DNA of 64,000 nt from positions 5,426,501 to 5,490,500 of the forward strand of contig NZ_CP056030.1 of the NCBI RefSeq assembly GCF_013374995.1. The letters run 5' to 3'. Below the pieces are notes generated by a model. It ran no database searches, was not told the origin of the DNA, and was given only the letters and a program-made list of their open reading frames with translations. The DNA comes from Pseudomonas eucalypticola. Its GTDB lineage: Bacteria; Pseudomonadota; Gammaproteobacteria; Pseudomonadales; Pseudomonadaceae. The position numbers were made by a program, and so were the translations under genes. Positions 15,482 to 18,470 of the stretch are shown here, piece by piece. How positions within the stretch are numbered: the first letter of the stretch is position 1; every line of letters begins with the position of its first letter.

Positions 15482-15973
15482 TCAGTTGATACCCAGGCGG
15501 CGGCGCAGGCCTCGCAGGGCAAAGCTGACCCATGGCCACAGTAGCGCGCTCATCAGGGCCGGGAGCAGCAACGCCAGGGTCGGCTGGCGGTTGCCGGTCA
15601 GGGCGCTCAGCCACAGCTGGGCCAACTGCCCCAGGCCGAACACCACCAGAATCACCAGGCTCTGCTGCCACACATGGAAGGTGCGCATGCGCTGCAGCAG
15701 GGACAGGATCAGGAAACTGATCAAGGTCAGGATCATCGCGTTCTGGCCCAGGTAAGTGCCGTACAGCACATCCTCGGCCAGGCCCAGCACGAACGCGGTG
15801 GTCATGCCTATCTTGTGCGGCAGGGCCATGGTCCAGAAGGTCACCAGCAGCGCCAGCCACAGCGGCCGCAGGATTTCCATGAACTGCGGCAACGGCGAAA
15901 CACTCAGCAACAGACCAAGGACGAAGGTGAACCAGACGAACCAGCCGTTGCGCGGCCGTGTGCTGTTGACCAT
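15482..15973 (-). CDS. mreD: Rod shape-determining protein MreD
   Basis: A 163-aa polytopic inner-membrane protein with five or six hydrophobic helices ([44 protein letters not shown]). It is part of the elongasome with MreB, MreC, RodA and PBP2. Its ATG overlaps the mreC stop (TGATG), so translation is coupled. Confidence 0.94.
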
Positions 15974-17055
15974 CAGTGTCTCTCCCGCGATGTGCCATGG
16001 GCAGGCTTGGCCGGTGCCGCAGCTGGCGCCGCCGCGGCCGGGGTGGCGGGTGCGTGCCCCGTGGCGGCGGGTGCCGGATGGCCGCTGACCGGGGCGGCGG
16101 CCGCAGCAGGCGGGGTAGTGGCCGGGGCAGCGGCGGTACCGGGTACGGCCTGGGCCGGCGCGCCAGCAGCCTGCCCCTGGTGATCAGCGGCCTCCTGGGC
16201 CTGCGCCGCTTCGGTGGCACGCTGCTCGGGCGAGCGGCTGTCGGAGAACACCAGCAACAGGTAGCGGCTGCGGTTCAGGGCAGCCGTGGGCACGGCGCGG
16301 ACGATGGCGAATGGCTGCCCGGAGTCATGGATGACCTCCTTCACCGTGGCCACCGGGTAACCCGCGGGGAAACGCTGACCCAGGCCAGAGCTGACCAGCA
16401 GGTCGCCTTCCTTGATGTCGGCGGTATCGGCGACATGGCGCAGCTCCAGGCGTTCCGGGTTACCGGTGCCGCTGGCGATGGCGCGCAGGCCGTTGCGGTT
16501 CACCTGCACCGGAATGCTGTGGGTGGAGTCGGTCAGCAGCAGCACCCGCGAGGTGTAAGGCATCAACTCCACCACCTGGCCCATCAGCCCGCGGGCGTCG
16601 AGCACCGGCTGGCCCAGGAACACGCCATCGCGCTCACCCTTGTTGATCAGGATGCGCTGGGTGAACGGATTAGGGTCCATGCCGATCAGCTCGGCGACCT
16701 CCACCTTCTCGTTCACCAACGCCGAGGAGTTGAGCAACTCGCGCAGGCGTACGTTCTGCTCGGTCAGGGCCGCCAGTTTCTGCAGGCGACCTTGCAGCAG
16801 CAAGGCTTCGGTCTTGAGTTTCTCGTTCTCGGCGACCAGCTCGGTGCGGCTGCCGAACTGGCTGGCCACGCCCTGATACAGGCGCTGAGGCAAGTCGGTG
16901 ATCCAGTACGATTGCATGAGTACCAGCGACATCTGGCTACGCACTGGCTGCAGCAACGTGAACCGCGCATCGACCACCATCAGGGAGATCGACAGCACGA
17001 CCAGTACCAGCAGGCGCACGCCCAGCGAGGGACCCTTGGAGAAAAGCGGTTTAAT
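15973..17055 (-). CDS. mreC: Rod shape-determining protein MreC (probable ATT start)
   Basis: A bitopic inner-membrane protein: N-terminal helix (RLLVLVVLSISLMVVDAR), a coiled coil near residues 70-110 (ELVAENEKLKTEALLLQGRL), a beta-rich periplasmic domain (VNRNGLRAIASGTGN; VSSGLGQRFPAGYPVATV) and a low-complexity Ala/Pro tail. The frame has no ATG before the helix. The best start is ATT at 17055, giving KPLFSKGPSLG ahead of the helix, with a strong GGAGGAG 6 nt upstream. The only conventional alternative is GTG at 17019, which has a poor SD and leaves no cytoplasmic segment. Length is 360 aa with ATT and 348 aa with GTG. Confidence 0.9.
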   Translation of the reverse strand: MKPLFSKGPSLGVRLLVLVVLSISLMVVDARFTLLQPVRSQMSLVLMQSYWITDLPQRLYQGVASQFGSRTELVAENEKLKTEALLLQGRLQKLAALTEQNVRLRELLNSSALVNEKVEVAELIGMDPNPFTQRILINKGERDGVFLGQPVLDARGLMGQVVELMPYTSRVLLLTDSTHSIPVQVNRNGLRAIASGTGNPERLELRHVADTADIKEGDLLVSSGLGQRFPAGYPVATVKEVIHDSGQPFAIVRAVPTAALNRSRYLLLVFSDSRSPEQRATEAAQAQEAADHQGQAAGAPAQAVPGTAAAPATTPPAAAAAPVSGHPAPAATGHAPATPAAAAPAAAPAKPAHGTSRERH

Positions 17056-17095
17056 AAGCCGCTCCTCCCAGGCTGATGTTCATTGGCTCATTCAT
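17051..17095 (-). other. Possible 14-codon leader ORF overlapping the mreC start
   Basis: An ATG at 17095 opens MNEPMNISLGGAAY and ends at TAA (17053-17051), which overlaps the proposed ATT start of mreC (17055-17053) in another frame. The mreC Shine-Dalgarno lies inside it. This is the geometry of a coupled leader peptide. Its own ribosome site is weak, so translation is unproven. Confidence 0.35.

Positions 17096-17210: not shown

Positions 17211-18470
<1,260 letters not shown>

Follow-up and report, generated by a model that had tools for sequence, protein, structure and literature searches.

The mreC gene of Pseudomonas eucalypticola is close to certain to begin at the ATT codon at 17055, the only plausible start that comparison of related sequences leaves for it, and AUU, AUC and AUA together are the commonest class of mreC start in the gammaproteobacterial families sampled. 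Below, AUH denotes AUU, AUC or AUA, canonical starts are ATG, GTG and TTG, and the window is the whole stretch of 64,000 nucleotides that was analysed. The features concerned, all on the minus strand, are the following.

15482..15973, minus strand: mreD, whose ATG has one base in common with the mreC stop
15973..17055, minus strand: mreC, read from ATT 17055, 360 codons before the stop
17037..17070, minus strand: predicted hairpin (prediction only), with arms 17070-17059 (containing the Shine-Dalgarno sequence) and 17049-17037 (codons 3-7)
17055-17053, minus strand: ATT start codon of mreC, without an upstream in-frame ATG, GTG or TTG, aligned with residue 1 of the solved chain 7eft
17068-17062, minus strand: Shine-Dalgarno (SD) sequence GGAGGAG, with a 6-base spacer to the ATT and an anti-SD duplex dG of -10.2 kcal/mol
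17051..17095, minus strand: leader ORF, from ATG 17095-17093 over 14 codons, MNEPMNISLGGAAY, to TAA 17053-17051
17211..18248, minus strand: mreB, with an ATG start, upstream of mreC and used as the control gene

The identity of mreC is given by a PF04085 match in its own genome (E 2.5e-42), by the N-terminal helix, by its place between mreB and mreD and by its match to solved MreC chains. Between the upstream TGA and the ATT the frame holds 8 codons, none of them ATG, GTG or TTG (locus L088), and a canonical codon first appears with GTG 17019, which is residue 13 if the ATT is residue 1; therefore the list of open reading frames opens mreC at this GTG. The original prediction had placed the start at the ATT behind a GGAGGAG six bases away, and the sequence reads so. 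The ATT has one base in common with the TAA of the leader ORF, and the initiator tRNA should put formylmethionine at this position.

The start was compared in the best 80 of 308 confirmed loci from one scan of genome contigs, 79 of them labelled Pseudomonas and one a metagenome-assembled Paucimonas, and ATT stands at the mreC start position in all 80. Among their 72 distinct sequences, codons 2-5, 7, 9, 10 and 12 each encode a single residue, several with synonymous change, while codon 13 is GTG in 46, GTT in 12, GTA in 7, GTC in 5 and another codon in 2. The prediction had named a lack of conservation before the GTG as the outcome that would speak against it; what was found instead is that residues 2-12 are conserved as protein, with synonymous change present. 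Upstream of the ATT strong conservation is seen only at the SD bases: codons -4 to -2 track the SD and codons farther upstream are less conserved. The predicted N terminus KPLFSKGPSLG has its counterpart in E. coli K-12 MreC, which begins MKPIFSRGPSL from an ATG with which the ATT of the window aligns, and residue 1 of 7eft (367 residues, as long as E. coli MreC) aligns with the ATT-encoded residue. Of 95 loci, 79 from the named 80 and 16 from the family, 89 have no canonical in-frame start upstream; locus L020 misses the stricter pattern behind this count and behind the leader count of 79 loci given below.

Two other placements of the start have to be weighed, and we consider each of them very improbable. 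The GTG at 17019 (in P. aeruginosa GTG 17), as first canonical codon of the frame, might be the start of MreC, the residues before it being untranslated; this is what the ATG/GTG/TTG set permits, and the residue numbering in the accessible part of one P. aeruginosa study (PMC8137920) matches such a start. However, 26 of the 72 distinct relatives lack GTG at codon 13, codons 2-12 bear the marks of protein conservation with synonymous change, residues of the same kind follow the ATG of E. coli MreC, and the P. aeruginosa GTG falls inside the helix; inspection of the usual distance before GTG 17019 showed no SD-like sequence. The non-conserved codon 13, set against the conserved codons 2-12, rules out GTG 17019. 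The AUH codon might otherwise be an internal isoleucine, with the start farther upstream at another non-canonical codon or with entry by frameshift from the leader. AUU, AUC and AUA are synonymous, so that their interchange alone is no proof of a start, and in some genomes the frame is open for dozens of codons upstream; yet in many genomes the open frame before the AUH spans only 0 to 7 codons, protein conservation stops at the AUH codon, the SD lies 5-10 bases before it and ATG, GTG and TTG are found at the same position. Loci with ATC or ATA lose the leader stop, so no common frameshift site is kept. On the short upstream frames, the SD placement and the lost leader stop, both the upstream start and the frameshift were rejected, and the ATT at 17055 is retained as the start.

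That gene callers would trim MreC, as had been predicted, fits the numbering of the P. aeruginosa protein. In one sampled genome (L387), whose MreC is 100% identical to the solved chain 6zlv over 176 residues, mreC reads TAG GAG CGG ATC ATC AAA CCG, with GAG CGG ATC, none of them canonical, before the start ATC; its first canonical codons are TTG 16 and GTG 17, inside the helix. As far as the accessible part of PMC8137920 goes, its numbering (Glu188, Arg190, constructs 36-330 and 97-258) fits offset 16 alone among the offsets 0-24 tried, and hence a start at GTG 17 inside the helix for that protein, although such a start gives 328 residues in the sampled genome and the paper has 330. The numbering, from which the annotated start was deduced, fits an MreC that is 16 residues short, lacking the cytoplasmic tail and the first part of the helix, and at least one published MreC study seems to have missed the AUH start. 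The start of mreC in L387 is a tandem ATC, of which SD spacing favours the second. In the P. aeruginosa-like loci L361-L363, L384 and L387 the gap between mreB and mreC is only about 30-36 bases, and a leader ORF was not seen.

The AUH start extends over the family. Of 198 family genomes, 158 matched a pattern neutral as to the start, DTN and then the KPxF..GP codons. Among the matches listed the start is ATT, ATC or ATA with these exceptions: one ATG match in G013, on a different contig from the mreC of that genome, and two GTG matches in G169 that come in addition to an ATC match there. A protein re-search of 22 Pseudomonadaceae genomes (21 of the 40 pattern-negative ones and G013) found mreC in 20, with an AUH start in all 20 and no canonical codon upstream in 17; in one of these loci (L122) an ATC stands one codon ahead of the aligned start. 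The pattern matched 71 of 293 genomes in the order and 42 of 274 in the class. In single loci just one codon of open frame precedes the AUH start (L135, L187, L195), or ATG, GTG or TTG takes the same position (L140, L141, L168, L169, L192); L158, L159, L173, L179, L182-L186, L188 and L191 were rejected as mreC, being short or unrelated frames. Within genus code g34 of the order (L137-L142) mreC starts with ATT, ATC, GTG or TTG, a natural series of start strength, and L409 of the same order has a divergent mreC without the KPLF motif and without a canonical start before the helix.

At the level of the class the test was made without the motif, by walking the frame from the PF04085 domain to the upstream stop. 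The domain was present in 186 of 203 class genomes, and the set comprises 148 of these 186 from 124 family codes, 29 as loci from the search and 119 as regions fetched separately (of 120); L310, which runs off its contig, the L164 of the window itself and genomes beyond the printed list were excluded. In 67 of the 148 mreC frames (58 of 124 families) the stretch before the predicted membrane helix contains no ATG, GTG or TTG, and in each of them it contains an AUH codon; L205 and L211 meet the contig end before a stop, and L205 belongs to the 67. For the control gene mreB, 169 loci gave 148 motif hits, 144 of them with a canonical start within 30 codons before the conserved motif and 4 cut by an edge, and 21 loci had no hit; this set of loci and the zone tested differ from those of the 148 mreC frames. 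The starts assigned in the 148 frames, some of them doubtful and those of GUG/UUG most, are AUH in 85, AUG in 38 and GUG/UUG in 25; counted by family, 71 have AUH only, 32 AUG only, 18 GUG/UUG only and 3 are mixed. With about one genome per family code in this sample, species-rich ATG families weigh little in these counts. In a later sample, of which 23 of the 30 returned loci were examined, the four further class loci all start with ATG, three of them with MKPIF like E. coli, and the 14 loci from outside the class, all such among the 30, have canonical starts, by which an AUH start outside the class was rejected. A distant DNA search for E. coli genomes gave no match. Given the 38 AUG and 25 GUG/UUG frames and the later ATG loci, AUH is widespread in the class and not universal; the original observation is confirmed, and its spread is wider than had been claimed.

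The start codon goes together with the strength of the SD. Median SD energies in the 148 class frames are -7.1 kcal/mol for AUH, -2.5 for AUG and -3.2 for GUG/UUG, against -3.0 in random upstream windows (AUH versus AUG, p 7e-12), a comparison in which a few motif-less AUH starts had been picked by their SD; with motif-defined starts only, the medians are -7.1 for AUH (n=81) and -2.45 for AUG (n=18; p 1.3e-5). An SD core lies 5-10 bases before 72 of the 81 motif-defined AUH starts, and any SD core was found for 5 of 18 AUG and none of 4 GUG/UUG starts. For mreB the median is -4.1 (59 starts, only 2 from AUG-type genomes), and single values for mreC are -3.0 kcal/mol in E. coli, -10.2 in the window and -6.9 in the P. 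aeruginosa genome. It is as if AUH with a strong SD and AUG with hardly any SD were two routes to weak initiation. The best tree of 151 MreC domains calls for 15 changes for AUH and AUG, and well-supported branches force at least 4 changes of the AUH label; only 2 independent pairs were usable for the contrast of start and SD (p 0.5), so the trade-off could still reflect descent. In the same operon, E. coli mreD (L225) has a GTG start after GGGAGGG, that is, a weaker start with a strong SD.

On the comparative evidence, translation of mreC begins at AUU 17055, giving fMet-KPLFSKGPSLG, and we propose that selection would keep this initiation low, leaving MreC and the overlapping MreD scarce relative to MreB; the rare weak start of mreC probably keeps its protein scarce. 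IF3, by destabilising initiation at AUH codons, would enforce the low output, and the base common to the mreC stop and the mreD ATG could hand the brake on to MreD. In the window's clade there may be a second layer, to which we give about an even chance: the SD would be held in a hairpin with the AUU in its loop, and ribosomes on the leader would open the hairpin and stop at the UAA overlapping the AUU, ready to reinitiate. We infer low dosage, IF3 control and leader coupling, and hold with good confidence that the AUU start, scarce MreC and MreD, and a leader opening the site in this clade form the best explanation as a whole. The consulted part of PMC5472188 describes IF3 as repressing initiation at codons other than AUG, GUG and UUG, for example in infC and sigR. 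According to the part of PMC7793260 available, an excess of MreC alters cell shape in E. coli, and MreD offsets part of this effect, so a brake on mreC is reasonable; against a low dosage stands the amount of MreC given there for E. coli, about twice that of MreD.

The predicted, putatively translated leader ORF belongs to the clade of the window, in which its coupling to mreC is plausible. An ATG-opened frame reaching the TAA of ATTAA exists in 79 of the 80 named loci. Most distances to the nearest ATG give a leader of 13, 14, 15, 16 or 20 codons, lengths that are whole codons by construction and no evidence in themselves, since the test counts in-frame ATGs alone. The leader's own SD has -4.3 kcal/mol (in the window and as the median of 48), like that of mreB and much weaker than that of mreC. 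Of the named ATT loci 78 of 79 have the leader frame, as have all 19 ATT loci sampled from genus g1, a sample that includes the window itself and possibly shares species with the named set. Of the g1 loci with ATC or ATA 1 of 11 has it, and elsewhere in the family and order 3 of 31 loci. Being confined to this clade and mostly absent elsewhere, the leader was rejected as a family-wide device; of the coupling that had been predicted, the overlapping leader stands within the clade and is mostly missing beyond it.

The fold predicted for the leader group pairs the SD with codons 3-7 and leaves the AUU in the loop, which in the window has 9 bases (17058-17050). The predicted unpaired fraction of the SD is 0.04 in the leader group versus 0.31 and 0.21 in leaderless relatives, and averages 0.07 across the 80 named loci. 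In a pair table of 48 distinct sequences, 47 of which entered the alignment (L042 was left out), the core pairs are well kept and no clear covariation is seen by inspection, because both arms are fixed by other needs. Synonymous resampling gave the leader group a median z of -0.18, so that selection for the hairpin through synonymous codons in this clade is unsupported, and the leaderless group a median z of +1.32, with 0 of 34 sequences more stable than 90% of resamples. Codon 4 is CTT or CTC in 47 of 48 leader sequences and CTA or TTA in 22 of the 34 others. The whole 205-base stretch has no extra stability (z -1.06). Leaderless species seem to avoid the hairpin and leader species to tolerate it; in such a model the pattern of codons and hairpin would be expected if leader translation opens the site, and a single shared origin could explain it too.

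That the AUH start is real and the leader ORF and hairpin are incidental has a probability only a little short of even. ATTAAA itself yields a TAA, the SD together with Pro-Leu-Phe codons yields the hairpin, and the leader is mostly missing outside the clade. The leader peptide varies: in 17 distinct 13-codon leaders, pairs with a single difference are nonsynonymous in 14 cases and synonymous in 9, and selection on the peptide sequence is unsupported; the hairpin stays within the range of synonymous resampling, 6 of 48 sequences beating 90% of resamples, and one shared origin could account for the co-occurrence of leader and hairpin. Against this reading, the leader-frame ATG is present in 97 of 98 clade ATT loci versus 10 of 85 class AUH genomes, and the other two frames carry such an ORF in only 10 and 1 of the named 80. 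The median hairpin energy is -17.1 kcal/mol in the leader group (55 distinct) versus -6.2 (8) and -7.7 (41) in leaderless groups, counted over loci that have a recognised SD core and flanks of sufficient length, and the synonymous codons of leaderless relatives weaken the structure. As to the purpose of the start codon, AUH might be kept for IF3 sensing, wall elongation tracking IF3 or 30S availability in place of a fixed low dosage. All three AUH codons interchange, no GUG/UUG mreC start was placed among the listed Pseudomonadaceae rows, and infC of the window's genome also has ATT at its expected start; we nevertheless judge this rather unlikely, many lineages having AUG with a weak SD, which keeps the dosage but is expected to lose the sensing.

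A rare AUU start is known in E. coli pcnB, as in mreC, and translational coupling to a leader ORF is a general kind of control, with overlapping stop and start and a masked SD. The mreC leader resembles such coupling in its stop overlapping the start and in an SD predicted to be masked; it differs in that the restart codon is an AUU in a predicted hairpin loop and the leader is putative. A further close case is infC, whose AUU or AUC start is misplaced in annotations according to the consulted parts of PMC5472188 and PMC5559785. Both genes have an AUH start, but infC is autoregulated through IF3, whereas mreC is a cell-wall gene without an autogenous loop, for which an effect of IF3 would hold by analogy. 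Streptomyces sigR, as far as the same part of PMC5472188 describes it, shares with mreC a non-canonical start, an operon in which one partner is kept below the other, and misannotation; its start is GTC, described for Streptomyces, whereas mreC has AUH across a class and the contrast in SD.

In the literature searched, mostly outside subscription journals and largely as titles and abstract openings, we found no description of an AUH start in mreC. Tentatively, and with the odds against the whole of it, mreC may be the second conserved AUH-start gene beside infC across a class, tying rod elongation to initiation fidelity (IF3, 30S state), with AUH plus a strong SD and AUG without an SD interchangeable, and with the Pseudomonas leader peptide and the SD-masking hairpin with its AUU loop forming a ribosome-gated switch. 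A central cell-shape gene with a conserved start codon apparently lies outside ATG/GTG/TTG gene calling, which excludes an AUH start, and the N terminus of MreC is then likely wrong wherever it was so called. The gene joins the few whose start codon itself seems selected, and its AUH and AUG starts with strong and weak SDs offer a natural series for how operons set unequal protein amounts. The infC gene of the window's genome (G000:C1 near 4452569, L386) reads GGAG TAATA ATT ATT AAG, a tandem ATT pair after GGAG at the expected start position, with an ATG a few codons downstream.
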